DNA of 64,000 bases from Ectocarpus siliculosus. Lineage: Eukaryota; Sar; Phaeophyceae; Ectocarpales; Ectocarpaceae. Within the stretch, counting starts at the first letter, position 1, and each line of letters begins with the position of its first letter. The stretch lies in assembly GCA_000310025.1 (NCBI GenBank), contig FN649737.1, positions 121,409 to 185,408 of the forward strand. The letters are read 5' to 3'. Shown here piece after piece: positions 5,303 to 58,764 of the stretch. The position numbers and the translations under genes are program-made. The notes beneath the pieces were generated by a model that saw only the letters and a program-made list of their open reading frames with translations, searched no databases and was not told the DNA's origin.

Positions 5303-8300
5303 TCACCCCACGAGCCACCCCACCCCTGCCGAGACCACGAATCCCAGCACCAGGGACCCCATCTTGCTCCACCCGTTCTCCGTAGAAGCGAGCTCCGGCG
5401 GGAGAACCTCCATCAAGGAAACATACAGGAAAGTTCCCGCCGCCAGCGCTACGCACACGGCACCGCCCGAGTCATCCTCGCCGTCCTTTTCGATGAGGGC
5501 GCCCAGGAGGATGCCCAGGGGGGTCATGGCGGAGAAGGCGATGACGAACAGGGTGACCTGCTTTCCGTAGACGCCGCTCTGGAGCAGGGAGGCGCCTAGC
5601 GCGTACGCCGCGAGTCCCTGGTTCGAAGGAAGCGTGGTGTTGTGTTGGGTGTGGGTGGGTGGGGGGGTACAGTCCGTGGACCAGATCGTGCTGACCCTGT
5701 TTACGTTTGAGGTGTGCTCATGTAAACGCACGCCTTAGCGGTTAGACCATGGACCATGGGGGGGGGGGGGTACTCATGTAAACGCATGCCGTAGTCGTTA
5801 CACCATTAACTACGGATGCCTACAATGCCGGGATTGGGGGGGGTCACTTTGGTGGGAATTGTTGCTTCTGCTCGGCATTGGCCGTATCGACGTTCCGCTG
5901 CTGTTCCTCTCTCAAACGGTCACGTTCGAGGCGGTTCACTCGCTTTTCACGCCAACATCATCCCTACAGGATGACATGACGAGAGCATCATGCCTATAAC
6001 GCGGACATTATGCCTACATGACGCGGGCATCATGCCTACACATGACAAAGGGCACAATCCTTACGGCAAAGGTACCATGTCAATGACAAGGGCATAATCC
6101 TGCCGAAGGGTTGGAACAATTCATACTCCGTTCAAAATATTTTAAACAGTCAAGGTGGCCTTGGTGCCCCTGATGCGGGCATCGCCTCGATCGGCCCCCT
6201 TGTAGTTGTGAACTTCGTTCACCGTATCCTACACACAGAAACTCCCACCCTATCCCCTTCCGCGATAATCAACTCTTGTAGGCCACGATTTGCGCCGAAC
6301 CTCTTATCCTTTACCCACGCGTGCTAATATACGTTTCGGGAACCTCAAAGCTACAAATCCTTTTTCGCAATCGTACACAGTTGATATCTTGCTTTTCCTA
6401 TCGCTCTCTTAGCTCACCATGAGGCTCCTTCCTTCTGACTACAACTCGTAATGAAATGCCTTGCCAACAACTATTAGCCAAACAGTACAAAATATAAAAG
6501 CGCGCAACACACAGCGAGGCTACATCGAAAAGCAAGATTGGTTGGTACCTTCACGCAAAGCACACGCAAACAACATTTACGTTTAGACGCGAAAAAAACT
6601 ACCATGTGGTCCAATAATCCCACGCCAAGGCTTCCAACTCTTCGATTCCTGCCAACAAACAATATCGAAAATATGAGTATCCCATCAAACAAAGATTTCC
6701 CGTTGGAGAAAATACAACATCCGAAGGGATGTGTTGAACGCAGCCTTTGCAGTGAGTGAGAAAAAAACAGCTGGAACAAATACTGGGCTTGTTTTCTTGG
6801 CCCCTCTTTCTCGCTCCCAGCGTACCTTGTGGACTCCGATCGCGAAGAGCAAGTTGTAAGCCTTCGTGGTCTTAGCGCCGACTCCCAGCCCTTCCATCAC
6901 CGAGTGCACCGACAACGCCAACAGCAGAGCCAGGCGCACCCACACTCCGTCCCCCTCCCCCCCCAGCCCGTGCGCATGCGCGTGCCCCCCATGGTGATGA
7001 TGATCCGCGCAGTCCTCGTCTCCGTGTGAGTCAGTCGACGACGGCGACGAGATCAACCCCTGCTGTGGACACGCTCCGCCCCCGTTGCTTCCTGCCCCCC
7101 CACCCCCTTTACTACCACTGGCTCCCCCTGCCTCGCCGCCATTACCGTTACGGTCACCGTTGGTGCCCCCCCCTCGCACCACCGCCTCATGCGAATCGCC
7201 CATGGCGGAGGAACCCAGAAGAGCCTTCGGCGAAATAGCGGCCATCTCCTTACGCGAACAGCGGGGCGGAGTAGGGGACAGGGGGGGACACGGAGGAAGG
7301 AAGCGCAGGTGGGATACGAGGAGCTCAAGACGGATTAGGCGGAAGGAGGCGTGAATGGGATAGCAGGAGCTCAAGACGGATTAGGCGGAAGCACGAGTGA
7401 GATAGAGTTGCAAAGGGGGAGCTCAGGACGGTTGGGCTCTCGCCTACACAGGCTGAATGTTTCTTGAGAACAGCACTGCTCAAGTCTCTGGCGTCGTGGA
7501 ATGAAAACTTAGGCACGGTAGTGCGATAGATGAGCCCTAAAACAAAAAATTAACAGCAATGATCACCAAGTGAAATGGCGACACAAGATGCCAACACATC
7601 ACATACACCCCTAAAGACAGCGAGCGACAGATTTCACGTTCACCAACTTGCACGAACAACACTGATTATGATGCCCTCCGCGCGTTCGTTCCACTCACGA
7701 GCTCTGCCAGGTCTTCTGAGTCGGTGTTCCGATGGCTCCCGCCGTTTATTCCCCGTCTTTGGCCGAACCTGTTCAGGTCATCCACGCTTGGTGGCTCCTG
7801 CAGAAAAAAAAAACCGGAGGGACGGACGGACGGAACTAAAAAACGAGGTAAAAATGTACCATCGGGCCAGCAAGTCAGAGCGAGAGCGAGGGCAACATGC
7901 AAGGCTAGGGAGTTCGCAAACACGGTGTGGAACAAACACAAACATAACCCCCCCGGGACAGATTATCACAGCCAGCTCCGTCCTTGAAACTCCTACTTCT
8001 TCAAGAGGTCAAAGGCGGTGGAGACCACTTCATCCTCCAGCAACTCAAGGGCGGTAACAGCTCGACGACGCAGATATGCGCGTATTTTGATGTTGTTGTT
8101 GTTGTTGCTGCTGTTTTTTGTCGAGCTCGTCCCACACCAAAGCTCCACAAAATAGAGTGTAACAAACCCCATGTCGCATGCTAGGACGTTGGTGAACATG
8201 AACATTGCCTCGGCATTGAATTCTTTGCCTGCCGGAACATGGGTGTCGTCGCTTGAACCGCCGATTGATCGTGGGCAACGTCGTTAGAGTTACACTAGCA

Positions 8301-22072: not shown

Positions 22073-23629
22073 TTACACTACGGAGTAATTATTGCGCGAA
22101 ACCGCCCTGTGACTGCAGCAAAAAATGTCACTCACGCACTATTGTACACGTGAGTGTTAAATAGTGCTGTGAAGACTTCAACACGCCCCCTCGACTTTGG
22201 TTATATCTCAAACAGGTATTCTCTCTCTCATTGTATGACAGTGTGTATTTCCTAAAAAATGTCAGTCTCCTTGAGCCGGTTTTCCTCCGCACTGACTCAA
22301 GACTTGAACAACAGTTCGACACATCCCTTGCGTGAATCTTTACCTTGCGTCTTTCTCATACCTCCCTGTAAGGGACACGGAGGAGGATCGCTGTATGTGC
22401 ATCTATTCCCGCCACGAAATCATGCTCGACGCATAAAGTCGTGCGGACCGGATCTTTTTTCGCGGGGACGTGCTCCGCGAAGATACTGCAGAGCCTGGCG
22501 AACCGAAGTTGAAACCGGCTACAGCTGTTGTATGCATACAGATAGAGCCCGCACTAAAGAACTTCGAGTTTTGGCGGGGGCTGGGGTTCTTGCAATAGTT
22601 CTTCTTGCGGCCTACAAATGGCCACGGCATAGATTATAGTGTAGGGATTCTTAACCGGGCTCACAAAACGGTACTCAAGTCCTTATGTTCAACTTGATGT
22701 TGATGTTCATTTTGATGTTGAGCATGCCTCATGAACTCCTTCACTGCCAAGTTCTTAAGTAGCTGCCAAGTTCTTGACTGCCAAGTCCTTCACTGCCAAC
22801 TTCTTGAGTGCGGGAGCTCTCTGTAGAGCTGCCCTCCCTTTCGCTGGTTCCTACTAATAGATAATAGTACGAGAGAGCGGGCATAGAAAAGCCCATATTC
22901 TCGGTTGAAACATGTCTCATCCTTCCAACGACAGCTGCAGGTGAAGCTGATTGCATGCGCCCACAATCCTACTCATTCATGCTACTCGTTCCCGTGCGTA
23001 ATGTGTGTCACGGCTGTCCGTGTCATGCCGGGGAGGCTCGAAACCAACGTCTCAAAGGGGGATCTTTTGGTATCGGTTGCGGCGGGGTTGTGTTCAGGTG
23101 CTGTCGTTCCACCTTAGACGTGTCGTCGTTGTTCTGGGTAGAAGCAACGTCGTCTGTGCCTTCCATGCACATGTATCAATAATCACATGCAAACCGTTCA
23201 CAGGGACGAGTAAGGATGCCAGCCAGAGGCCGCACCTCTTCCACCAACCCTCTCCATAAATTCCTACCATTGCCTTTGCCACGATCGTAGGGCCGCTCTA
23301 TAGCTGTCCCGGTATGTCAGATACGCCCTACATTTGCAATCTATTTGCAACCTATCCATCCGTCGCAATTCCACCTGTTATTACGCGGCCGTGACCGGGA
23401 TTGATCAACTGCAGACTCCAGGCATAAGTGCTGTGGCCCAATTGCACCACAGTCAGTTGTTGACAGGCCCTTATTTACGCGGGGCATACCGCGATTCGTT
23501 GTACACGGCAGTTGTCTTGTTTCAACCAAAGATGCTACAATATCGCCTGTTGAAACCGAGGGTCGCCAGCCTATCGACGTTCCCATTGTTGTACCTGGCC
23601 GCTGCCCCCGACTCCCACCCGCATCCACC
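22073..23629. other. Intergenic, with a dispersed repeat
   Basis: No gene is recognised. About 22540-22840 carries a repeat-rich stretch: ATACAGATAGAGCCCGCACT followed by several TGCCAAGTTCTT units. Similar GCCCGCACT-containing stretches occur at about 30125, 43780 and, more weakly, 44690. The last few hundred bases are the presumed promoter/5' UTR of the F-box gene. Confidence 0.45.
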
Positions 23630-25199
23630 ATGCAGCAGCTTCGTTTCACCATGAACGAGTTTGATGCTATCGAGAGAGCGCTGCAGGTACCGGAGCTGCT
23701 CACGAGCGTACTCCGGTGCCTCGGACCACTTTCGTGGCTCCACTGCGCCTCCGTCTGCTCTGGTTGGTCCGATGCCATTCTCTACCGCAAGCCTACGACG
23801 GCAAGAGCATCAGCGGCGTTAGCTGTTGCGAGAGAGTCGACATCAGGAGGAGCATCAACAGCACCGGCAACAGTAGTGGTACCGGCACAGGCACAAGAAC
23901 TAGCGACAGCACCAACAGGAACGACGTCACCAGCATCGGAAACAACAGCAGCAGACACAACGGAAGCGTCAATGTCAGACGGAGGGGCGGAGGCAGTGAA
24001 CGGGAAAGAAAAGGCGGCGGCGGCGGCGGCGGCGACAGCGGTGGTCACGACCGATCTCTGGCGCGATTTTGCGGTGACGGTGATTCGGTACAACGAACCA
24101 GCTGCCGCTGATCGCGACACAGCGGGGGATGTCCCCAACTCTTCTTGCACCAACGATTCAAACAGTCCCACCTGCAGCTTCGGTCAAAACCACCGCTACC
24201 ACCACACCCTCACCCGCGGCAGACGGAGTAAGCCCTTGCGGGCTTTGCATCCGTCGTCGAGAGGCGGTGCGCACGGCCATTTCTTCAGACACGTTTGCCT
24301 TGAAGGAGACCCCACAGTGCTCGGACCGCCGCTGCGAGCGACGATCGCTGCCAGCAGTAGCGGGACCGGGCGGAGGGAGACGGCGATCGCGACCGTCAGC
24401 CTGACGGAAGTTTCGAAAGCGGCGGAGGCTAGATTTCGACGACCAAGGTGCTCGGGAGTGCACTTCATGATCGGTTTCTCTTTCCCGTTTTTCTCGTAAC
24501 TGTCGCCATTCGTCGTGGAGAGGGGGTCCCTTGGACTGAACAAACCAAGCTGTGGGAACTGCGCGGCGGGTGTGGTGACTGATTCGCTCACGATTGACGA
24601 AGAATTCCGGCGTTCACACGTAGCTTCATCGAAGGCCTTTGTTTGAATGATTCGTGCAATTACAGTCATCATGTTGATAAGAGGGACTAATTTTCATTTC
24701 GTAGACTGCTGTATTGGTGTACTCTTGTGATCGATAATGTTTTTTGCGGCAATGCTCACCATTCTTTGTTTTGAGTAGGAAGGTTATAGGTTTTCGGCTT
24801 GCATGGTACAGTTCTTTGAGGCAGCCGAAGCAGACTCTTTGCTGTTGTGTTCGCGACCCTTTACGAGAGTCTAGTGGTCAGAGGACCATGACTCCATAGG
24901 ATGGCGATAACGAATTCCGCCCCGCTTCCCACGATGCCATCGACGCGGAGAACTCTCACCGAAGTTGAACGATCTTTTATCCCGACGGTTGTCTTCGATG
25001 CGCAACCGCGGCAGGGCACTGATTAAATTTCTGTGGCTGTGGACCCGCTACAGCAACACCGACCAGCGGCCAACGACCTTTCCAACGATTGAGTTGACGC
25101 CGAGCAGTCTCCAGTTCACGTACAAACCACCGTGCGGCCGAAGGAGAGGCACCGGGGGCGGGAGCGCCGCGAAAACTGCAGGGGGGCCAGGGTCATCGC

Positions 25200-27244: not shown

Positions 27245-30200
27245 TCATTCCACCTTTGACTTCACAAGTTTTCCGAAGGGTTCGCTGTCATCTACCTTCA
27301 GGTTTGACACCTGACACGAGTCGATATCCAACAAGGGGCCGAACACCATGGCGTGTTTATGCTGCATGGGGCTGGAGCCCCACACTTGCACTATCCGGTG
27401 TCTAGCATTTTGAGGGCGTCGTTGCGATGTCCATGCCACTGTCACTGACTCCGTGCCAAGGAGAACCCGACAAACCTCGCTCTTCTTCGGACTCGTAGGA
27501 TCCCTACGAGGCACCTGCACCGAGTAAACCGTATCGTTACCAATGTCGACGGGTTGTCGGTGTCCCTCGAACTGGGCGTTCGCCGACGTTGCACCCGCTC
27601 CTAGGTTAATCTTGAAAAAGTCCCAAAAGCCCGTCTTCTTATTAACAGCACCCCAACAGTGAGCAAGAAGGTTCTCCTAGCCTTGATTCACGAAGTGGAA
27701 GTGCGACCGCCTGGGTTTCCCTTTTAGCTTTGGCAGTGGGACGATTTCCATGCAGCCGGGAGGAACACTGATGCCTTGCGAAAGGGCGAAATCACAAAAG
27801 TGAGGCACAGCTACCTCCAAAACAAACACCCCCCTCTCCGCTTGTTTGATAGTTCCGTCAATCGGGACCCACTCTGAAGTGGCGTCTCCTCGCGTCACCA
27901 CAGTAGACTTGGACGCAAGGTAAGCGTGGTTCGCAACGTCATCATCATCATCGTCATCACTGGCGCCATCGGAACCCGATTCCATGGAGGCCTCGTCTCC
28001 CAGGGGAAACTGTAGACGGAGATTGGGGTCGAAGCTTTTCCCAATCCGGGCGAGGCATCTCACAATGGGATGAAGAAGGCACTGCTTCCCGTCCACCACT
28101 TCAGCTGAGCTTGAGCACAGGCCAATCAGGGCAGGGACGTTTCTCCCCAGGTCGGGCACCTCGAGCTCAAAATCTAAATCATGATTGCAAAGAACATCCG
28201 GACCATCTCCAAAAGACCATGCCACCACTTCACCCTCGAAATCTGCGAAGTACACGAGAGCACCAAAGGTCAGTACAGCAGTAGTAGTGATCCGGAATAG
28301 TACCGGTATAATGCCGTTGAAATAGCCTGGCACGGATGGAATATTCAAAATTGTTTCATATTCTGATGCGGGTTTGTGGAACCCAGGATAGGTAAGTAAG
28401 TACTGCTGTGGTGGTAGCACGTGGGTGGTAGTGACGCACATACAACCGTAGAGATCCGAGACCCTACGAACGATGTTCTCGGGGTCTGAAGATGTTTTCG
28501 CGGGACGCTCTCCGCGGATGACGACGCGGAGGTAGATGTCCGTGGGTAGAGCTTGTTCCGCCCAAGGTATCTGTCTCGTGAGTATCTCCCAAACTACTAC
28601 CCCGAAGCTGTAGACGTCGCTCGCGTTGGAGACTGCCTTGGTCTTCAGCACCTTCTTGTGCACCGTGGGAGGCGTAGGAAAAGAGGGCAGGAACAGCAAA
28701 TCTTCCGCGGACGTCGCCAAAGAGTCGCAGGTAAAGGAAACTAGGCATAGATGCGAGTTGACACGCAACACGTTTATAGTACTTAGGCTAAAAGCTTTTT
28801 CCCACTTCTAATCTTCCAAAGGGCTTTCGCCACTGCACCAGATAATATCCTTACCAGATGCTGCCGGCCGCTACAAATTTCAATCCAAGCAACCATTACA
28901 GAAGGCGTCACGCACAGAGTTGGACTAAGGTTGGTTGTACAAAATTTCCAACAAGACGAAGACGCTCAACGCAGCAGTATATCGTTTCACGGAGATTTTC
29001 CACAACCCGCCTTGTTCACATTTCCTGTACAGACTTAAGGTGTGGAGGAGATTGTGCACTAAGAACAGCCCTTTTCGGGATTACATTGGCAAAGTCGACC
29101 CATCTTTCGCGTACTTCGCCCGCACCCCGGTGCCTCCACGCTTACTGCACCTAGAGACAACGGGAGCGCAAGACGAAGATCCATCAACTCACCTCTGGGG
29201 CAGTCCATGCGAAGCTGATGTGGGTACCGTGTCCCGTCTTCGTCGTGTACGTCGCCAGGCCTGTCGAGTTCTCGGTGTTCTGAGCCCATCTGGAAGTACC
29301 GAAGTCCCCAATCTGGCAGCAAAATTCAAGACAAGGCCAAATTATCGTTGTTTTTCACACTTTTGTTGTTCTTGGGCTTGCTGCGGCCACGCATGTCAAA
29401 CGTTTTGTTCATACACATATACTGTACCGGGTAGGAGGCAACTCCGTGCAGCCTGGCGCTCCAACCAGGGGTCGGAAAATCCGTGAAAAAAAAAAGACAA
29501 CCACGCGACGATAGACAAAACGGGAAAAGTCCACAACCTCTCGAAAACCAACCCACACTTTTGCAACGGAGCGAGATTCTCCACAAAAAACACCCCCCGG
29601 ACATGCCTTTGCCCTTCCACGCCCATCCAGGAGAATGTTGGCGGACTTGAGGTCGCGTGCACCGTCGCCTTGCAGTGCAAGAAGGCCATCCCCGCGCAGA
29701 TATCTCCGATGATCTGCCGACACTGCGCCTCGGGAAGTGGAGGCTCAGCGCGTTTCAACATGCTTCGGAGGTCGCCACCCGCGAGAAGCTCCATAACTAG
29801 AACCGGGCGGTTTAGCAGCGAGGTGATCGCCCCGTAGACGTTAACGGTGTGGGGACTCCTCAGACGAACCATGGCGTCCAGCTCGTGCAAGAACGCCTTG
29901 CGCTGTTTCTGCAGCTGAAGCGTGTGGGACTCGCCTTTGCTTGCCCCATTCAACAGGTCGTCCTCGCCAAGTCTGCCAAAGCCATGCGCAACGTGTTGTA
30001 CCTAAGGGTGTCGCCCGGCAGCAGGATTGACAAGGAAAATGGAGAGGCAGAGCGCGCAGCGGAAGGGCAGACACTCTTAAGGATAACTCGTGCGAATGGG
30101 TGTTGGCGGGGTGGTGCAATACAGTACGAGCCCGCACTCAACAACCTCTAATTTTGGCCCAGGCTGGGGTTCTCAGTACCGAGGGTTGTGCCACGAATTT

Positions 30201-32746
30201 CCACTACGTAGGTTTTTGTGTAGTGGTTTTCCACCAAACTCATAATTGGTGCTCAAGTACTTAGATAATTGTGAGTTTTCCGAGGCTGTATCTGCTTTCT
30301 TACTGCCAAGTTTTAAGTATGGGCGTTCACAACTTTCCTCGCTACGTCTGCGGAACGAACAGCTGCTGCAGCCGCCTCAGACCAACCTTCGCTGCAGCGT
30401 TGCGCCCGTTGTAGTCTGCGATGAACACCTCTCCGAATCCCCCTTTCCCGAGCACTTCATCCGTGATAAGCACGTGGTCCTCGGGGATTGCAAGCTGATC
30501 GAGCCTGCGCTGCCGCCTCGCGCTACGGGCTTCCGCCAGAGGCTCCGACATGGCCTCCTCCATAGACCCCTTGTAACAAACGGAAAACATCGAACCACGG
30601 AGAAGCATATCACGCTCGAGTGGATGAATCCTCCCCAACCGCTGAAAACGACTCGGCGCGAGCGAAACCCCAGAATTATCCCTGCATATGTTTACGACGC
30701 ATTCTTGTGCCGTTGGGGGCTAGAAAATGAGGAGAGCCCGCCTCCGCCCGTGGTGGGTGCATGCCCCAAGGCGAAATCCGTGGACAACCGGCAACAGCGT
30801 CGCACTCCCGCATCTGTGCAATAGGACTACATACTGCGAAAACGGTTCGTTTGTCTCCGTCTCCCGCGCTCACCTTGTGCCGGTGCGTCACCTCCTTGGC
30901 CTCGGAAACATCGTGCCCCACTTGCACCTGAAGGCCCAGCTGGACCAAGAAGCCAAGAGGCAAAAAGGACAAACGGCGGGCGGAAGTCGACAGCATCTTG
31001 GCGCCGTCTTTCGCGAAAAGGACATAGATTCGATTGTATATTAGGGAACGTGAAGACGAAGCGCTTGCCCTAGGCGGTGATGCAATTTCTGAACAAGATC
31101 GTCCTACAGAGTGCAATACACCAACATGAATTAGACTTCAAATGCGATACCAGGGAAGCACTTCGCACACTTGGAGTCGCAGTTCGAGCCGTCCCCATAC
31201 TATCATACTCAAAGTCGTCCAGTAGATGCTACCTGTTGTGGTCCTACAACGGGAGCAGAGATGGTCGAGATGATCCCAAGACTTTCCCCGTAAAAGGGTA
31301 AGGCACTGGTATTGACACCTGTAGCTGTAGACTGCTGTTTCGTTTCACAACCGTGACAGGACCCAACCCAGTCGAGTGCGCGGCAGAGGTGAACAAAGGC
31401 GTTATCGATCCTCAATGTGGTGATTTGTCCCTCGAAAAGTGAGGGAAGTCCTCCGCGCTATGTGAGGTCAACTCTCCCGAGTCGCACGACCCGAGATCGG
31501 CGCTAGTAAGAGAATTGCGAGCAATGACATTGTCTCATAACCAAGAGTGAGGTGGACCATGTTTCACCAAAAGAACAAGGTTCAGGAAACACACGACCTC
31601 ACGTGCAGGCGCAGGATGGCCCTATCCACCACAGCGTCCAGCTCGTCCTGGCGCCGCTTGAACAGGGTCGACATCAACACGTTGGACAGCCTGTTCTTGC
31701 TTTGATACGTCTTGATAAGCTCCACGAGATCGCAGACCGCGTCGTGTACGTCTTCCATCAGGGCTTGCGCAGCTTCCCCGTTCGTGTCGCCGCCCTGGAT
31801 TCCGTTTCGACGTATCGAGCGCGTAGGTTTGCACGGAGGTATCGGCATGCACGCCTTCTGAAACATGCACTCAGATTTTCGTGCCACAGTATCCATGGAT
31901 CCGTGGTCACAGGTGTAGGTTACTGCCCTGCCCACGGCTACGTATTGCTGGAGACGGGTTTGTGGCGTGTCAAGATCCGAAGAAAAACAAAAAAAAAAAC
32001 CGAAAGAGTACTAAGAACTGTGTGAAGACTGGCACATACTCACGTACAGCTTGCCACGTTCTCATCGCGCTGGTGCTGGCAAGCCTGTTTCGTGAGACTT
32101 TGTATTGCGCCCTTTTCGCAACGCAACGATCGTGAAACATAAACTGGCTCCATCGCCTTCACACTCGCACCAATCTGAAGACACGAAAAACACGAAACGC
32201 GACCAAGGGCATCTACCCGCTTGCCTTGCCGAGAACCTTCGCCGCCAGCTCAAGCATCATGACGATCGACCGGCACCGCTTTACCCCGGCGTCGCCCCGG
32301 ACCGCGTAGTCGCGACTATCCGAGACCAAGCGCACCAGAATCGACACCGCCGTGGCCGCCTCGCTGACCCCGGGGATCTGGCAATGCTGCGCCAGCTCCT
32401 GGGCCGCTGCCATGACCGCTTGGCCGTACCCGACGCCTCCGTCGGATGTCCTTCGGGCGCCAACCATCGAGGGGGCTCCGCCATCTCCCGGGACAGGGTC
32501 ATTCTCGGGAGGAATTGCCGTCCCGGCCAGGTCGTTCCGTTCTCCCGTCGACACGTTGGCGGTGGAGTTCGTAGCGTGCAGCGGTGACTGTTCCGTCGGC
32601 AAGCCGACTTCGGCACCCCCGCCGGCAGGCGCTCTATCGTTATCCTTGCCCGAGCGCGGCTCGGTTTTCGCGCGGCTGGACTGCACAACCGTGCCAACGG
32701 CAGCTGGAGCCGTCGAGGTCAAGACTTTGGGCTCTCGGGTCACCAT
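27245..32746 (-). pseudogene. TKL protein kinase with MLKL-like helical region and ZU5-like tail; two lesions
   Basis: Minus-strand exons with matching phases: about 32746-32225 and 31794-31603 (helical, ending FKRRQDELDAVVDRAILRLH); 30939-30874; 30569-30387 (glycine loop GKGGFGEV, Lys in AAAK); about 29962-29607 (MELLAGGDLRSML, catalytic loop DLKSANILL); 29312-29193 (DFG and APE motifs); 28651-28447 (SDVYSFGVVVWEIL); 28242 onward (ZU5-like: LHPIVRCLARIGKSFDP, EWVPIDG, VAVPHFCDFAL). The first two helical exons resemble the MLKL-type four-helix bundle. In the catalytic exon VH is followed by a 1-base loss at 29656/29657, breaking HRD; with that base restored the exon would be 357 bases, in phase. 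The tail hits TAG at 27677-27679, yet the same frame stays open to 27245. The kinase C-lobe stops before subdomain XI. It is either a recent pseudogene or carries sequencing errors. Confidence 0.7.
30110..30340. repeat. Dispersed repeat in the kinase intron
   Basis: Contains ATACAGTACGAGCCCGCACT, GGCTGGGGTTCT and TGCCAAGTTTTAAGT, the same sequence elements in the same order as at 22540-22760. It sits in the intron between the glycine-loop and catalytic-loop exons. Confidence 0.5.
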
Positions 32747-32939
32747 CGCGTGTTGAAATGGAGGGGGCAGAGAGACGTCGCGATGATGGTGCGTAGGTCG
32801 GTAACGTGACAGCTGGCGCCATCGACGTCGACCCGGGGCGTTTGCACTCGTCGACTTCGTCCTCTTGGGCTATCCTCGCGCGTTGGTCGGAGGTGGCAGA
32901 GAGGCGTCTCGCCGATTCGTAGAATGTACAGGCGGGGGC

Positions 32940-35109
32940 GGGGGGGCGGCGACGAGTTCTTCTCAGAAGGCGAGCCGCTGCCTCGGTTGCCGCCAGTTAC
33001 AACGATCGATGGAAGCGAACTAGCGCCCAGCCCTTGTCCGCGCTCACCGCCTTTCTCAAGGTTCTTCCCGGAGTCGGGATCACTGCTAGCGGGCAGTGGG
33101 ACGTCGTCCCTTTTCTTCGCGGATCGTCGGCGCCACATGAAGGCCCCCATCGCTGCTATCGCCACCGCCCCGGCCACAGTGCCGCCTACAACGCCCACCG
33201 GCACTGGTGGACCCTGGACAATCGGACATGGAAGTGAGGGACACACGAAACGCACGGCGGAAAAGGCAAAGCGAGGGAGGCTATTGTGTCGGGCTTTCGT
33301 TAACAGAAAGGCCAATGAGCGCCTGTGGCATGTTGTCCTTTGCATCTTGGGGTTCTTCCAGAAGAGAGGCCGCACGAAACCCACTCCTATCGGTGCTGCA
33401 AGTCGATTGGCATTTATGTGGATATGTAGGCGGAGATAAGACACTTTCGTTCGTGCGTTACCAATTTCGGCCGCTGGGGGCGATGTCAAGTGCAGTTCCA
33501 ATCTCAAAGTGTAGTTCTGTGCCACCGCAGTGGACGTTGTGTAGTTCTGCGTCACCGCAGTGGACGTTACAGTGACTGCGGTGCCAAGCGCTGCCTATTT
33601 CCCCGCTCCGCACGAAACGGGCAAAATCAAACTCTCTTACTCCCATCGGAAGAAGGGGACGGGGCAATAGTCCTCGTGGGAGAGGGCGTGCCTTCGGGCT
33701 CGGTAGACAACGCGGTAGGCTCCGGAGTGGTGGTGGCGAAAATAGGCGCCGGTGTAGAGGGAATGTCAAGGGCGGTAGACAATGCAGTTGGCTCCGCGGT
33801 GGTGTTCGAAATAGGCGCCGGCGTAGGGGGCATTAGGGGTCCGGGAGTGGGAGTGGGAGCAGGCTCCGGGGTGATGGAAACAGGCGCCGGCGTAGAGGGC
33901 GTGCCTTCGGTAGACAACGCAGTAGGCTCTGGGGTGGCGGTCAAGATTGTAGGTGCTGGCGTTGAGGTCGTGCCGACATCGGTAGATGACTGCAGGGTGG
34001 TGGAGGAAGACGCCGGCGTCTCGGAGGTTTCGGAGTCGCAGCCGCAGAGGCCTGTCGAAATGTAGTCGGTCGTGTCGAAGTCGCCAGCAGTAGTTTCTCT
34101 GCAATCCCATTGCCCGACCGCGGTGGGATGGATCGTCGACGCATCGTCCTCGAAGGCGTCCTTGCACAGAACGTCGATGCAATCTCCGGTCGCGTTCCAA
34201 TGACCCCATACTCAGATTCCCTGGACCCAAAAACAATTGGGGACGTCAGCGCCGGGATAGGTACACGGAGAGCTGTCACAAGGGCTAAACAACAATCATG
34301 ATGAGCGAGGTTCGTAAGAACAAGCGGTATCTACCACAAATGGCTTCCCAGAAACGACCCCCTCCCCCCAAAAAAGAACCTTGGCCAAAATCGAAACATC
34401 GCGAAATCACTCTTCGCATACGATTGATTGCAGTGGCATACAGCGTGCGGCATTCTGGGCACATCTCTCAGCAAAAGAACTATGTACACATCACCAATAC
34501 GCTGGAAAGCACTCCCCACTAGAAGACCAACCCATCCATGTGGTGCTTAAGCAAAACTCGTACGGATATGCCGACATGAGTGCGAAGTAAACCTGCGCAA
34601 CATGCTCTCAAAGGCTGTAAGCGAGCTATCGAGCCCCACGAACATCAGCGCGATCGCTTCTACCAAGCATAAAGTCGGTATGGTCCCATGTCCGCGTGCC
34701 AACGTTGCGTTGCGATGACTCGCAAAGGGCACAGGTAACTACAGTATTTCATCAACAATAGAGTGTCCAGCCTTACGTAGGAACCTGACCTATCCGGCAA
34801 GCAACATATCCAACGCCTACCACTCGCATCATGGTACAAGGAGCTAGTGCTCCCCCCGTAGGAGCTAGAGGTTCCGAAGACAGCGGCGCCATCCAATTCA
34901 TGGTAGAAAAACGCACTATCTTCGTAATAAATCGGGTCGTCGTTTGCAGCGATCAAGTATCTGTACCGGTAACTGGGTAGTACCCTGTAGCAGTTCAATA
35001 TCTCCAAGGGGTCGAGGGTATACGAATCGGTGTTGCCAGAGGCGTAGAAGGGTTCCTCGTCCGAACACGTCGTCATGCGGGAAAAGGGTGATAGCTTCGC
35101 GGTGGGCAC
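32940..35109 (-). CDS. Receptor-like ectodomain and transmembrane exons, probable 5' part of the kinase gene
   Basis: Exon a is about 35109-34785 (TTCSDEEPFYASGNTD, then RRWICCLPDRS), left edge uncertain. It joins in phase to exon b, 34210-33641 (VWGHWNATGDCIDVLCKDAF, then GLCGCDSE, followed by a Thr/Pro/Ser-rich stalk with repeated TPEPTALST units). A third exon from 33213 to about 32940 encodes a single membrane span (GVVGGTVAGAVAIAAMGAFM) followed by the stop-transfer WRRRSAKKR and a Ser/Pro-rich juxtamembrane part. Together this reads as a type I receptor. It lies directly upstream of the helical/kinase exons on the same strand, so I infer one receptor kinase. The exon b to membrane-exon phases do not join directly, so a further exon or a gene boundary is missing. 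No signal peptide was located. Confidence 0.5.
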
Positions 35110-38083
35110 GGCGCTTTATCCTCGTGGATGTTGGCTCTTTCCTTTCACCACCGCTTGGTTGCCGATGTCCACTTGACACAACCGAGGGTCGAAACGAGCA
35201 CGGGGGGGCAGGCAAAATCATGAGACAAGGGCGGAACAATGGAACATGTTTGAATTGCGATGTTCGGCATCGGAGCATGGACCGTATTCAAAGGCTGAAC
35301 AACTACAGATACTCTCAGGCTAATCTGGTCGAAACAATGCGGCTGCCTTCACCGCCCCCCCTTACCACCCCTCTGCCCCTAGGCAAACCCGGGGAGCAGG
35401 GTGAAAGGAAGGGTCAGCCTTCGGGGGCAAGGTAGAACCATCACACCACAATACAAGTGGTAAACAGATTGGTCTTGACTCAGCGGCAAAATGTACGTGG
35501 GGCATTTTACCCGATGCAGATGAACGCCTTCGATCGTGACGAACACCTTCAACTGTGAAGGGATATTTTTCAAATTGTCCTGCCTACCGCATGGCAGCCT
35601 ATCTGGTTGAAGAAACGGTTGGCGGAGGGAGGGGCGAACACTTAGGTTGAGCGTTTCTTCTTCTCGTGTCGGTGCCGATCCGGGCTACCGTCTTATCACG
35701 GTTCATGTTTGTTCGACCGAGTACAGGCAAATGAACGCTCGCTCGCTGTGTTTGTTAAACTCTCGCTTCCGGAGTGTTTTGTTTTGCTCATAAGGGTTGC
35801 ACGTGGTCGCCACAGAAGGGACGCGCCTAGTCTTCAAGTTGGCTGATGAGGGAACATGTACAACCTCCTGGCATCGGCCGCTGTTTGCGACCCATGGCAA
35901 AGCAAGCCTAATATTGTAGTCGCTAGATAGTATCAGCATCAACAAGAGCACACAAATGTAGACTATGGAGGTTGGGTGGAAACTTTTCTTCTATTTGAGT
36001 TCGGCATTGCTGTACAAGTGTCTCCCTTTGCACGTAAAGCGCAACAAGTGGGGGTGCACGCGGGCACGCTGTTGTTAATGTCCATCCAGGAAGATTGAGA
36101 CGCGATGAGTGGGGTGGTGGGTGTCGGATAATGTTGCTGTGAAAAACCGAGATATCCCTTCCTGTACTCTTTTCGTTCCCACCGCGTTGTAGGCGTGTTG
36201 GCCGGACATCAAAGATTGCACACCCACAGGGACACATCACACACACAGCAGCTCACGGAATATCGATTTTTCCACCATGTATGTCACGCCGCCATCTATG
36301 ACCCATGGGACAAACGGACAAACGCAGACGACGTTCCACGCCTCCACGCCACAATTGGGGCTATTCTTTCCACTGCGGAAGAACTTGTAAAAATGTATGG
36401 TGCGCCAGAGGCTTAGGCCGGGGTGTGCTCTCTCCGAGGGGAAGTGCTTATCACAAGACTTGGTCGAAAGCAATGGATGGGATCTTGGCTGGAGGTTGGG
36501 TTTTGTAGCCCAACCTTCGGCCGGGTGGTGGACGGGGGTGGTGCAAAGCGAAGGCGTAAATTACTCCGTAGCCCAGGAGGTGGCGGACGGACCGTTTGCT
36601 TCCGAAATACTGCAGCAGAAAAAGTACGAAATACGAAAAGTTGAGGTTGTTGCAAAGGTGGTCCAACCCGATGATACATTCATTCGGTTTACACCCCATA
36701 CCCCAAACCTAGCTCAAAGGACCAGCTTGTATGTGATGTCACTGCTGCACAGCAGTGGGTAGGTGCTGTAGGTTGACGTGCAAGGTACAGCAGAAGTGGG
36801 TAGGGTTGATCTGGTCGTGTGCTTATTCTCGCCACAAGAACATGCTGAGATAATTTTCTTTCCAACGGGAGACCAGCGTTAAAGGTTGAAGCTGCTGCCG
36901 TGCTCACCCACGTCTCTCTATCTTGCTGCCCATGGTCCAGCTCAATCTGTGTCACGATCTTTTTGTCTCTCTCGTCAAATCTTCGCTCCGGCTGTCTCCG
37001 TGTGCGTGTGCCACATACACATTTACATGTGCGGCAAGCGGCTGGATTGCCGACAGGCGTATATACGCCGAAGCTGGCGAGATTCTTGTACTCGCCAGTT
37101 CAACAATTATTGGGTTGTAGTTGGAGGTAGACACGAAACTTCAGGCACAGCGGGTTTCCAGCCCTAAGGCTACACCACGGCGCTAGGCCTCGCTAGGTCC
37201 AACCTACCAGTTCTGGCGTATACACGCGCTGGCTGGATTGCTGGACCCCAGATTCGGGGGCACACAATATAGTGGTACCCATGTCTTCCTTCTCTCAGTG
37301 TCATGATTTCCCGGTGCCGCTACACAGGACGTGTGCCTCCGCCGGCAGGACAGCACATGACATGTGTGAGAGGAGAGCACAGGCACAGAGCGCAGTGAGG
37401 GCTTCCATCAAAGAGTGTTGTAGAGATGACTTTCCATCAGGTTCTGTTCGCCTGCTTGCTGCTGTCAAGTGGTAGAGCACGGAGCTTCTGTGTGGGACCC
37501 ACAGGTGGGCAGCTGCTATCATATGCAGGGAACGCGAAGCGAGCGAAGAGATTTGTACCTCAGGCTGCACGTTGTACACAGCGCGAGCGTTAAGTGTGGC
37601 TATAGGAGCAGAAATTCTCGCTATGGAACCTCCCCGGGTGTCTTGTCTGGACGAAGACGTCCTTATGTGCAAGGAGGATGATTTTTCCAAAGGCAGAAAC
37701 CTTAGCTCTCTCCTCAACATTGCATTGCTGTCGGAGACCCTGAGTTGATGGTACAGCTGACCAGGAGCACAATCATTGCCTCAAGTGTTTCACCTCTTGG
37801 GTGTATGTAAGGTTGGACGCGTGCCCTAGTGGACAGTTCGCTGCTTATCATGGGCACGCTAGCTGCACATTCAAGGCGTACCCGTCGTCGCAGGAGCGCA
37901 AGGTCGAAACGGAGTATATGTAGACAATCATGCAAATCTGCTGTAGAATCCGGCACAGAAGTAATTTCGACCAATTTTTAGAAGTAGCTTCGTCGCATCA
38001 ACTTGATGCTGAATATATTCTGATGCTCAGAACATGTGGATTGATTTGTACATCCAGAGCAACCAGTAAACGTGCCGTATGAT
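35110..38083. other. Intergenic between divergent genes
   Basis: Lies between the receptor-kinase locus (-) and the CDP-diacylglycerol synthase gene (+). No coding signal is supported. It contains a near-perfect palindrome CACTGCTGCACAGCAGTG at about 36738-36756 and presumably both promoters. Confidence 0.5.
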
Positions 38084-51959: not shown

Positions 51960-54900
51960 ATGGCGAGCCCGATGTCTCTTGCGAGTGGGTGGCTGACGTT
52001 CGTCGCTGCCTGGTGTGGCCTGGTCAGGGGAATAAGAGCGACCGCACCCGGCCTTTCCACAACGCTTGGAGAGGACCACCAGCCCCAACTTCCGTACTTT
52101 TTGGGAGGTCCGCCATCAGATCTACGGGTAGGTATAAAGTTGCGCGCAGGCAGAACTTTCTATTTTGTCGTGGGAATATTTCTCCCGCGGACCGGATCAC
52201 AACGGCAATATGTTGTTACGGAGACATTTTCCGATTTGGAATCTCGAATTTTCGCCTTTTACATTCAAACCCACATGAGGCTGTAGGAGGAGTTCTGCGC
52301 ACTTCGTTGGAAAAGCACACAGGCGCGCTTTGGCATTCAGTACTCGCCTCATAGACACCTGTTTGCAATCAAACCTTCGATACCGCACAGTCCATTGCTG
52401 TGAGTCTCTTCGGGCCGAGTTCGGGGAGCTGGGGTGCAGTGTGTGTTCATCATGCTTGGAAAATAGGAATTCCAATTTGGAAATGCTGGGACGATCATGC
52501 TTGGATTTCGTCATGAATTCCCAACTGGATTTGGTTGAAATTCCAAACTGGAAATGGTGAACTTTCTTTCATATCTGAGGCGTGCTCTGGCCACACTGCG
52601 CTCTAGCTGCCCAAACTTGGCTCCGAGAAGCTCAGAGTAGTGGAGTGTTCAGTCTTATCCGTTAGATGACGAACAGGGGTCTTGAGGCTAGGACCAAATG
52701 ACGATGTGCCTTGGTGCGCTCTGCTTGCTATCCAGTACGCAGACCTCCTGCATTTAGGGGGTGGTTGAGCATCTTGTGTCAATTCCCCCGGTTTCAAATC
52801 GGACAACAATTCCATAGCAACTGTCCTCGCCCCCCTCGACCAGCTGCAGCCGAGTAACCAGTGGGAACTCCGTGTGCATCCCCGACTGCGTTGCGAGCTA
52901 GGATTTCGGAAACGCACTTTGGATGCAACAACCCTTTGCCTAACCTCCCCATGTCAAATGAGATGCTAGGACATGTTTCAACTCTTCCGCTTTTCTCCCC
53001 TGGTCGAAAGCTTCCTTGCCATCATTCCATGTTATTCATCCATGTTCTGTTTTGGAGAAATTGCCGACCGTTCCGATAACCACGAAGAAATAACACGGAT
53101 CTCAACGAGTTTAGTCATCTCCAGCGACGTTCCGAAACAGCACCAAAGCATCGACAAAATACGAACCGAAGCATGCATTTGCCAATCCCCAGAGATCATC
53201 ATCCTCTCCTTCCTCCCACCGTCTAGGACCGCGCGTCAGGCCCAGGGTCTTCCCTGGCACCTCACAGGGCCCATGGCCCCGGATTGCACTCGGCGTCCAC
53301 CGGAACCCCGGCATCCTTCACAATCCGGCTCCGTGGCCGGGGCTGCGGGGGGGAGGGGGAACGCACGCACGCGAACCAGAACGCCTCGGCAGAGGACAGC
53401 CTCCCGCGGGCGATGGACGACAAGCACTTCGTGTACGTGTGGATCGCGAGCACGGACCACGTGCTTCACGCGGCGGTCGTTGACAACGGGGACGGAACGC
53501 TGACCGCCACCTATGAGAGCCCGTATCCCGGGGACTACCTCGTACACGTCCAGGACGTTTGCACAGATATGAGCGTCGTCGGAAGAGGGAAAAAACGCCC
53601 AGGGGAGAGGGCTAAGGCGATCGTGGATAGCCCGTTTAGGTTGACCATCTCTGGGGAGATAGCTGTCGACGTGGATGATCTTCCTCTGTGTGACGCCGAG
53701 CACCCTCAGGAAGATGAAGAAGACACCTTCTGGCGCACAGGATCGTGGATATCCTCAAAGTTTGCCAGCGCAAAACACGGCGTGTTACGGGACGGGTGGG
53801 TCTTCCAGCCCAAGACCTGCGTCCACGACACGTTCTCGTACGACGATCTCATGCTGTTGGCCACGGGTTCGAAAGAGCCGACTTGGCTTTTGATCCTGGG
53901 GACGTCCGTTCAGCGCGGGGTGTTCTTGACGCTCGTGGACATGGTCCTCGCCCAGGGACAAAAGAGCGACTTTGCCACCAGCGCTATCCAAAAGTGCTGG
54001 GGCTTCGCGGAGGTTCGCGTTGGGAACCTCCGCCTTACGTATCAAGTGAGTGGGGGTAGCTAACGGCAGGGTCAATCGAACTGTCACGTGGACGTTTCCT
54101 GATGTAATCGTGGTGCGTGTGAATGGCTGCATTCGTTCAGCGCGCCGTGTCCTCGGTCGAACTTGTTTTTCTGTTGGACCCTCTCGGGCAAATCACATAC
54201 TCCGACACGTCCCACCAACGTCATTGACCCGCCCGACCTTTTCCCCTCTGGTTGGACTCCCTCCGGCAGGACCTACGATTACACGAGGTCGGACTAGCTC
54301 AGGACGACTCCGCCGTTTGTCACGACGACAAGCTAGCTATAAACAACGTCGCCGTTTTCGTGGCCGCAGCAAGGCGCTTCCTGAGGAGAAGTGTTTTCGC
54401 GGCAGGCAAACAGTGGCCTTCGGTGATCATGGCCCCACCGTTCATGGAAGACAGCGACGAAGCTGCAAACCTCCCAATCACGGTACGGAATCCAACTATT
54501 GGTCAGCCCGCTCCACTGTAGGACAGGAGAAGGTTGAGGTTGCATCAACTCTCATCCTGGCTGCAACACGCTATTCCATGAACCTAGTGGCGTCCATGGT
54601 ACCCACCGTCGATTTCAATTACAGGTCATCATGGACGCGCTTCCTTCGGCTTGGAATGGCACGCTCCTCATGATGGAGCATATGGCCGGGTTGGTGAGTG
54701 AGATCGAGCACGAGCCGATTGCACGTGCGTTTGACGCAACCATCTGTAGGACGCCAATGCCCCTAAGCCAACACGTGCCACACTGCCGCAGTCGAGCTCA
54801 TCGTCGACCTGATCCAATATCAATGGAGGGGTGTCATGCTCATGGCTCTTTGTCGTTGGGTGTGTGTCTATTTTACGCGCAGGGATTCACGTACAACTAC

Positions 54901-57140: not shown

Positions 57141-58764
57141 CCATTTTCTTGGTCGACAGCGCTTTTTATTAAGACCCACGTACGACTTTGGCGTGGTGGA
57201 AAAGGAGGTGCCTCAGCAACGTGAGGTTGTTCCCGTACCTCTTACTTTGCACGTTCATAACGATCGATTAGGACTGCTGTGGGGGAGTGTATTTCCAGCG
57301 TTTTTTTTTTTCTGGTTGGGCGAGACGCGAGGAATTCCACTAGCTTTAATTAAGCCTAGACGATATATCTAGACTTGTACATACACACAATAGTTTGAGC
57401 TGGTGAGGGAAATACGTTGTTGGAACCAAGCACGCGGGCAGTAGGTGTTGTGTCGTTCTACCAAATACATCGTTACTGATGTGTGCATGTTTCCTTTATA
57501 GGCAGCACCCAGAGCCATGCATGGCTCTAGGCCTTTGGATGGGGCGTTCGGATTTTGGTTACCTTGCTTGTTGTATTGTGGGCGTGGTGATGGTCGGCTT
57601 TTGTGTGCAGTTCTGAGAAATGTTTTACAACAACTAACTGGGGTGAGTATTTGGCCCCCAACTCACTGGGATCCCGTGACCCATTCTCTTAGGTGGATGT
57701 CAAACCCCCTTGGGGCGGGATTGGCGAGAAGTGGCGGCAGGGGGTGGGCTATACATTGCAACGGAACTAACAGCAGTGCGATTCGATGATAGATATTCCT
57801 TGTATTTCCACACACGCACGCACATCGTGGAACCTTTCCGAGAAGGGCCAGATTGGTGTGAAGCATACAGGTATCACCGTTTTCGTGATCCCCCCACACA
57901 TCGACTTTGTAGGTACGTGTCGTGTGTGGATTGGAAGGCCGGCGGAGTTGCACCCCGGCCTGGTTTGTAGAGGACAAGGATAGAATCACACCCTTTTTCT
58001 ATTTTCTATCTTGATTGGTGATCGTTTGATTCTACCACGAAGTATATTATTTTATGTTGTTCGGCTTCGCGTGCCGAGCGGGAGTAATGACTTCATTCCT
58101 TGAGGACAAATTTCCATTGTTTTCTTTTTTGGATGTGTCACTGCTGGCTGGTTGGATCATCCTGTTTTGTTTCGGTTCGTCTGGGCTCAAAATCGCGTTT
58201 GTTTGCGATTATTTTTTATGGTGGCGATCTATTTTTTCGTTGATTTGTGCTCAACATCGCGCGTTTTTGCGATGATCTGTTTTGGTCCTTTTCTGGTTTT
58301 TGTTTGGTTTTGTACGCTATGGAAGTGTGTACCTTTTGCTGGTAATTGGTCTGTGACCACCGAAGTAAAGCGTCTGCGTCATTCAGTTGGACGATAGATA
58401 CTGAACAGATCCAGACCGGAATAATAACAGTATCAAGTGGAAAACGACAACAAATCTATTCATCATGTGGTTTGGAGGCCCACAAGCATGCCCGCGTGTT
58501 TGAAGCTGCGAGACTGGCGGGGTTAAGCAGGGAGAATTTCACAACGAACGACATCAGTTTAGGGGAATGACAAAGTATTCAGAAATAATCCATGTTAGCC
58601 AGACCCGGGTGAAAAGTGCTACAGGCACACATCCGTGCACGCATACACCCAGCTGTTGGTAGTCCTTATATATCGACGTTCGGAAGCTACAGTAGCAGTC
58701 TGTTTGAGGCGTCGGGATGGCTGTTTGGGTTGTTGGATACAAGATCCGATCTGGAGAGTATGTG

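Follow-up and report, generated by a model that had tools for sequence, protein, structure and literature searches.

An apparently decayed member of a dispersed receptor-kinase family, joined across repeats to a piece of another gene family, in Ectocarpus siliculosus

The locus considered here lies in a stretch of 64,000 nucleotides from the brown alga Ectocarpus siliculosus (contig FN649737.1 of assembly GCA_000310025.1, forward-strand positions 121,409 to 185,408). This whole stretch is called the window, and it corresponds to C12:121409-185408 in the genome that was searched (189 Mb in 492 contigs). On its minus strand, read from 35109 to 27245, are the parts of a putative receptor kinase: two ectodomain-like exons, a Thr/Pro stalk, a membrane span, two helical exons and the exons of a tyrosine kinase-like (TKL) kinase. 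These parts were traced by three-frame reading of 35330-33000, of 33240-30330 and of the kinase part, followed by exon-by-exon searches. A preliminary description of this DNA had placed a Cys/Thr-rich ectodomain, a single span, helices and a kinase in one transcription direction, and most of these pieces are indeed there on one strand. It had further taken them, together with a tail likened to a ZU5 domain, for a single receptor.

All features of the locus given below are on the minus strand. The first is an ectodomain-like open frame (34660-35115, from three-frame reading) with a splice donor near 34790 that looks plausible by eye. The second ectodomain exon contains an in-frame TGA (34212-34214), and the open part behind it encodes a Cys-rich segment and the Thr/Pro stalk (33627-34211; open reading frames and genome matches). 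The single membrane span (33148-33204) is followed by RRRSAKK and aligns with that of other copies in the genome. Its mean Kyte-Doolittle hydropathy is 1.93 over 19 residues, and eight other copies reach 2.41-2.65. Next comes a juxtamembrane linker whose frame shifts in a C-rich tract (32933-32951) and whose second frame ends in a TAG (32870-32872). The two helical exons (32225-32431 and 31603-31791) encode the first and second halves of a candidate bundle resembling MLKL_N, placed by genome matches, exon mapping, alignment and Pfam.

Behind the bundle, exon mapping against the copies gives a short linker exon (30874-30939, LGLQVQVGHDV...). Genome matches and the same mapping then give an exon that runs from a linker helix through the kinase glycine loop to the catalytic Lys in AAK (30387-30569), and, with Pfam as well, an exon from helix C to the catalytic loop (29607-30001), which is followed by a GC donor and has lost one base in the catalytic loop (29656-29657). 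The exon with DFG and APE (29193-29312) was mapped in the same way, and comparison with the copies places the C-terminal lobe (C-lobe) exon at 28499-28651, truncated after RGERPA. The kinase exons thus lie between 30569 and 28499, and two of them score over the Pfam cut-off for PK_Tyr_Ser-Thr. Beyond them are two dispersed repeats recognised by genome matches (28425-28497 and 28283-28366), the tail exon that had been called ZU5-like (27680-28243), a TAG inside that exon (27677-27679) and, after the stop, the C-terminal part of the tail family (27245-27676, from open frames and comparison with homologs).

The locus is not the only one of its kind. Searching the genome with the helical exons and the kinase N-lobe as one joined query gave 57 matches. 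Outside the window, 18 loci match at least one helical exon together with the N-lobe, in the same order. Both helical exons are found at 14 of the 18; the copies on C7 and C11 have no match to the first. Three loci (C476, C28 and C9) match the N-lobe alone, and a kinase query gave 29 genome matches. This points to a family of about nineteen gene copies, the window copy included. Eight of the 18 loci were taken as long pieces (L013-L020) and nine as shorter ones (L024-L032), together with the C28 locus (L033). The copy at C15:1.60M is a short locus represented in match tables only and stands outside the motif counts.

The eight long copies are open in the exons compared. In each, a single open exon of 310-454 amino acids leads from the membrane span to helical exon 1, with a linker of 161-258 residues between span and bundle, and each has the catalytic loop in frame and the end of the C-lobe. 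The mapped exon joins are in phase 0 by eye. All eight have both span and kinase, in the predicted layout of a receptor-like kinase (ectodomain, single span, cytosolic kinase). Ratios of nonsynonymous to synonymous substitution rates (dN/dS), taken over three exons in nine chosen pairs (36 are possible among nine copies), range from 0.07 to 0.80, and 21 of the 27 values fall within 0.15-0.50, which shows that the sequence is under constraint.

The kinase motifs are consistent across the family. HGD is found at all 18 loci read, that is at 17 of the 18 family loci and at C28, which lacks a helical match, and none of these has an Arg before the catalytic Asp, which makes them non-RD kinases. The N-lobe Lys and the Asp of HGD are retained in the copies read, and DFG is present in 14 of 18; a search did not find it in L024, L025, L028 or L033. 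The best solved relative of the joined L014 kinase is CTR1 (E 5.6e-36), a TKL kinase, followed by TYK2, ACK1 and other tyrosine kinases from 4e-31. Together with the two window exons over the PK_Tyr_Ser-Thr cut-off, this confirms the kinase domain behind the bundle. The family also has broken copies. Two exons of L028 (C33:4.463M) contain stops, and at C15:1.601M the match to the kinase is split and includes a TGA, so there are decayed members besides the one in the window.

Set against these relatives, the window copy looks like a decayed, pseudogene-like one. It carries five lesions: upstream of the bundle, two stops and a break in the frame; in the catalytic loop, the missing base; and in the tail, a further stop. 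In addition it has lost the end of the C-lobe. Of three homologs, L041 alone has a match that extends as far as the TGA at 34214-34212, and its aligned codon is Trp. The exon in which the frame changes near 32951-32933, before the TAG at 32872-32870, is open in all eight long copies, and HGDLKSAN, where the window copy has lost a base at about 29656, is in frame in all eight. Kinase homology ends at 28498, and the C-lobe end missing beyond it is present in every long copy. At the TAG at 27679-27677, L021 and L022, which are homologs of the tail, read through; the two tail copies at L023 each have a stop at another position in the exon. The GC donor after the catalytic-loop exon was not counted as a lesion because half of the long copies (L013, L015, L017 and L019) have the same donor. 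With this damage there is no single intact frame, and the parts do not make one working receptor. As its sequence stands, the window copy could not make a receptor protein and, being pseudogene-like, is not itself a receptor; the object of interest is the family with open copies.

What lies beyond the truncated kinase? The spacer DNA at 28250-28500 has at least 39 further genome matches. Within it, the repeat of about 73 bases at 28425-28497 has at least 31 other matches, and 28 of those listed begin at 28497, the base after kinase homology ends. A second repeat, at about 28366-28283, has at least eight. Since the first repeat begins exactly where kinase homology stops, kinase and tail meet across dispersed repeats. 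Besides the window, the tail query matched four stretches, which lie at C477, C15:4.02M and C15:2.44M. Of the kinase matches listed, those on C15 are at 1.60M and 5.23M and none is on C477, so that the tail matches lie apart from every other kinase match listed, which speaks against the tail as part of the receptor. No tail match was found in the eight long kinase pieces, which extend 0 to 2 kb beyond the kinase. In seven of these the frame closes 13-24 residues past an RPTF-like motif, and the L017 piece ends there. CAG precedes the tail exon in the window, L021 and L022, and does not in L023; such a start might be expected for an exon of the tail's own gene. The tail thus appears to be a piece of another, unrelated gene family that was brought beside the kinase across repeats. 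It was also considered that the tail had been inserted into the kinase and had split it. This was rejected because no C-lobe end was found farther along the window: a search for the remainder across the window gave nothing significant, the best match (E 0.026 over 14 residues) lying on the opposite strand at 58716. By eye, L021 and L023 have letters upstream of the tail exon that resemble leucine-rich repeats (LRR), which would make the tail a possible part of an LRR protein; for L023, Pfam gave no confirmation of LRR.

The likening of the tail to ZU5 found no support. Neither the window piece nor its homologs matched the Pfam ZU5 profile, and a four-sequence tail profile run against the PDB gave no ZU5, its sole match being a ribosomal protein (E 0.49). 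A genome-wide ZU5 search found no matches, controls included, and is hence uninformative. Structure prediction of the tail, which had been proposed as a check, was run with AlphaFold2 on the single sequence; the model had a predicted local distance difference test (pLDDT) score of 35.6, which is unusable, and no fold search was based on it. The letters of the tail resemble ZU5 by eye only, and ZU5 identity was not confirmed. The combination with ZU5 in the window should consequently not be read as a receptor design.

The most probable reading, in our judgement at roughly 0.83, is that of a decayed copy from a dispersed receptor-kinase family, to which a piece of an unrelated family has been joined across repeats. 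Some observations weigh against this. The gene structure of the locus was read from the DNA sequence alone. A single open frame (27680-28807) takes in the C-lobe exon, the spacer and the tail exon, and the spacer is open in only 195 of 5000 dinucleotide shuffles, which leaves room for a chimera that preceded the decay and read the repeats as coding. Assembly errors, lastly, might account for the single-base lesions, and the loss of the C-lobe end has no explanation of that kind.

Perhaps, then, the locus is a real chimeric receptor gene, now or until recently, with the repeats coding or spliced out and the tail as a novel C-terminus? The C-lobe exon, spacer and tail exon in one frame, and the rarity of so open a spacer among shuffles, are what such a gene would have. 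It is nevertheless an unlikely explanation. The kinase has lost the end of its C-lobe precisely at the repeat boundary, the tail exon start keeps the CAG seen in L021 and L022, a stop falls within the tail in addition to the lesions upstream, and the other long kinase copies close shortly past the RPTF-like motif (seven of eight) and have no tail match (none of eight pieces).

Less likely still, indeed very improbable, is an intact gene whose apparent breaks are assembly errors in homopolymers and single bases. One lesion does sit in a C-rich tract and another is a single-base loss, the window contains 162 N, and comparison of the window copy with L013 and L014 gives a dN/dS of 0.15-0.34 by a simple count. 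However, the same assembly contains eight copies with these exons open, even though L028 and the C15:1.601M copy are broken; three of the lesions are in-frame stops; and losing the C-lobe end at a repeat is a different kind of event from a base error. The low dN/dS fits recent loss or inherited constraint as well, and the reading as a decayed copy is retained.

The ectodomains differ among the open members. Among the matches listed, L013, L015 and L020 have a Cys-rich exon in common, L016 and L018 share another set, and the upstream exons differ between copy groups. Neither ectodomain frame of the window has a match in the eight long copies; the Thr/Pro stalk alone resembles one of them (E 8e-5 without complexity filter). 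The first frame (34660-35115) found no second genome match at E up to 0.001 and is weakly like a stretch of L041 (E 0.10). For the second segment the genome contains eight further matches within E 1, and five of these reach 1.3e-4 or better. Three of these loci were fetched. In two (L041 and L043) a membrane span follows the segment by eye, and the family kinase was not seen in any of the three. The ectodomain module is therefore shared with loci outside the kinase family. Against Pfam at E up to 0.1 the ectodomain pieces gave nothing except DIPSY (0.05, or 0.0055 for a longer frame, below the cut-off both times), and the pieces tested contained no LRR match. The ectodomain of L016 and L018 has the look of a beta-propeller, by eye only; Pfam found nothing there and the idea was dropped.

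The part that makes the family unusual is the helical bundle between span and kinase, for which the preliminary description had proposed a likeness to the N-terminal bundle of MLKL. An alignment (A1) was made of 15 members, four of which lack the first helical exon. Pfam finds MLKL_N in nine of the 15, more often than any other family (best E 8.1e-6), and GIT1_C in seven (best 0.014). With longer versions of the bundle, MLKL_N is matched in three of four, the window copy among them at E 0.05; in its shorter version the window copy has no match. A further scan gave MLKL_N in three of five forward sequences and in none of five reversed ones. The matches are in register, at positions 26-135 of the 142 in the model. 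With a profile of the genome's own MLKL_N proteins, for which see below, the scores of the 15 members range from 1.6 to 10.2 bits. Among controls for this profile, the best of 1455 shuffled sequences reaches 11.2 bits, the next 8.9 and the best reversed sequence 5.2; a score of 8.4 bits is attained by five of the 15 members and by two of the 1455 shuffled sequences.

Might these exons encode no more than a common coiled or helical linker, like MLKL_N in composition only? Several results lean that way. The MLKL_N scores shown for the receptor family are below the Pfam cut-off (best 24.1 against 27 bits, the scores compared not including the bits of the match at E 8.1e-6). Run against the PDB, the A1 profile retrieved no MLKL and matched a mitochondrial ribosomal protein best (E 0.03), and one bundle member searched alone retrieved no MLKL either. 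In hhalign, the bundle against the genome's own MLKL_N proteins has a probability of 2% and an E of 0.023; none of 100 column shuffles and two of 100 block shuffles were as good, and the reversed alignment was not. The best shuffled sequence, moreover, outscores the best member. A mere linker is nonetheless rather unlikely, given that MLKL_N is the most frequent Pfam match and in register, that reversed sequences do not match it, that members exceed shuffled sequences at 8.4 bits, and that clear MLKL_N domains precede TKL-type kinases in the same genome. The bundle is thus quite likely a remote MLKL N-terminal, or HeLo-type, domain. The proposed likeness survives as a remote Pfam match, below the cut-off in the scores shown and with no MLKL structure to match it. 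A viral contig scan with the bundle alignment yielded 116 pattern matches and no confirmed relative.

Clearer MLKL_N domains are encoded elsewhere in the genome. A search with MLKL_N gave ten matches at E up to 1, four of them over the cut-off, and seven loci were taken. In L034 (C10), MLKL_N (E 1.9e-9, over the cut-off) is followed in the next open frame by a kinase (E 2.6e-36). L035 (C29), also over the cut-off, has a similar layout by eye, as does L040 (C25), in which the MLKL_N match is weak and contains a stop. In all three the kinase is of TKL type and has HRD, and by eye there is no ectodomain, which is the plain order of MLKL; the kinases also look soluble by eye. In L037, MLKL_N (2.5e-6, 27.5 bits, over the cut-off) precedes NB-ARC (3.2e-15) and TPR; in L039, MLKL_N (0.001) is below the cut-off and NB-ARC letters follow by eye. 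These two loci are neighbours (C21:3134500-3145800), and the order of parts in them is like that of HeLo-type NLR (nucleotide-binding, leucine-rich repeat) proteins. L036 has MLKL_N over the cut-off and no other family. At L038 (C14:551800-555100), the MLKL_N-like part is below the cut-off, and behind it lies a long hydrophobic stretch, rich in Gly and Ala, which by eye could be membrane-active. When six of the genome's MLKL_N proteins are combined into a profile, its top seven PDB matches are MLKL structures (E 2.7e-8 to 2.2e-4); this is a confirmation only and not an independent discovery, because the six were chosen by the Pfam MLKL model.

Elsewhere in the window, an open frame on the plus strand (53227-54060) has a Filamin repeat over the Pfam cut-off. 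Below the cut-offs are a ZIP transporter (6688-7380, minus strand), an F-box (23405-24496, plus) and HeH/LEM (337-1101, plus). Ten other open reading frames of the window gave nothing informative on the kinase locus.

How might the open members work? Their predicted order is a variable ectodomain, one span, a cytosolic linker, the MLKL_N-like bundle and a TKL kinase of the non-RD type, with the catalytic residues retained. A ligand would bring receptor chains together, and the clustered kinases would phosphorylate themselves or partners. The bundles, kept near the plasma membrane, would then assemble, and would either recruit like bundles (those of the ectodomain-less kinases and NB-ARC-TPR proteins) or act directly on the membrane. 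A role in cell death would be carried over by analogy from known HeLo/MLKL bundles, which are described as cell-death domains in animals, fungi and plants (PMC10197012, PMC10951266). An immune role of the receptor family may be supposed in the same spirit.

A broader and more tentative idea, on balance doubtful, is that this genome mounts one MLKL/HeLo-type bundle on sensors of three types, namely receptor kinases at the cell surface whose ectodomains are exchangeable, TKL kinases that lack an ectodomain, and NB-ARC-TPR proteins. The receptor would then be a membrane-tethered, single-chain counterpart of the RIPK3-MLKL pair, and the bundle a shared cell-death executioner or adaptor. If the bundle is truly HeLo-type, recognition, kinase and cell-death module would be united in one membrane-receptor chain. 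If the idea of a shared bundle is true, this arrangement would belong to the brown algal lineage, which is one of independent multicellularity. The unusual design first attributed to the locus can be kept for the family with open copies, not for the window copy or for ZU5, and named loci are now available for functional tests of the receptor family.

How does this family compare with known systems? MLKL itself is a pseudokinase without catalytic residues and a soluble protein without an ectodomain. The receptor-family kinase, in contrast, keeps the Lys, the Asp and, where seen, DFG. MLKL and the MLKL-type proteins of plants, such as wheat Pm13 (PMC10951266), have an MLKL_N-type bundle followed by a kinase domain, and the family has a candidate bundle of this type in the same place; the family differs in its membrane span and ectodomain, and its bundle match is remote. 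MLKL has been sought by homology in unicellular eukaryotes, and the available passages of that study (PMC7539657) name no brown alga; in a thin literature search, no account of MLKL-type proteins from brown algae came up. The LRR receptor kinases of Ectocarpus and oomycetes (PMC3268121) are likewise single-span receptors with a cytosolic kinase. The present family differs from them in its non-RD kinase and its additional helical bundle, and the ectodomain pieces tested gave no LRR match. In plants, immune receptor kinases of the non-RD class, EFR among them (PMC8463890), share the lack of Arg in the HxD motif; the family has HGD there and a bundle between span and kinase, and the immune role is not part of the likeness. 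Finally, brown algae have candidate immune receptors of the NB-ARC-TPR type (PMC8307928, PMC10197012), to which L037, with MLKL_N before NB-ARC and TPR, and the similar L039 correspond. Unlike the receptor family, these candidates are NB-ARC proteins, neither kinases nor membrane receptors.

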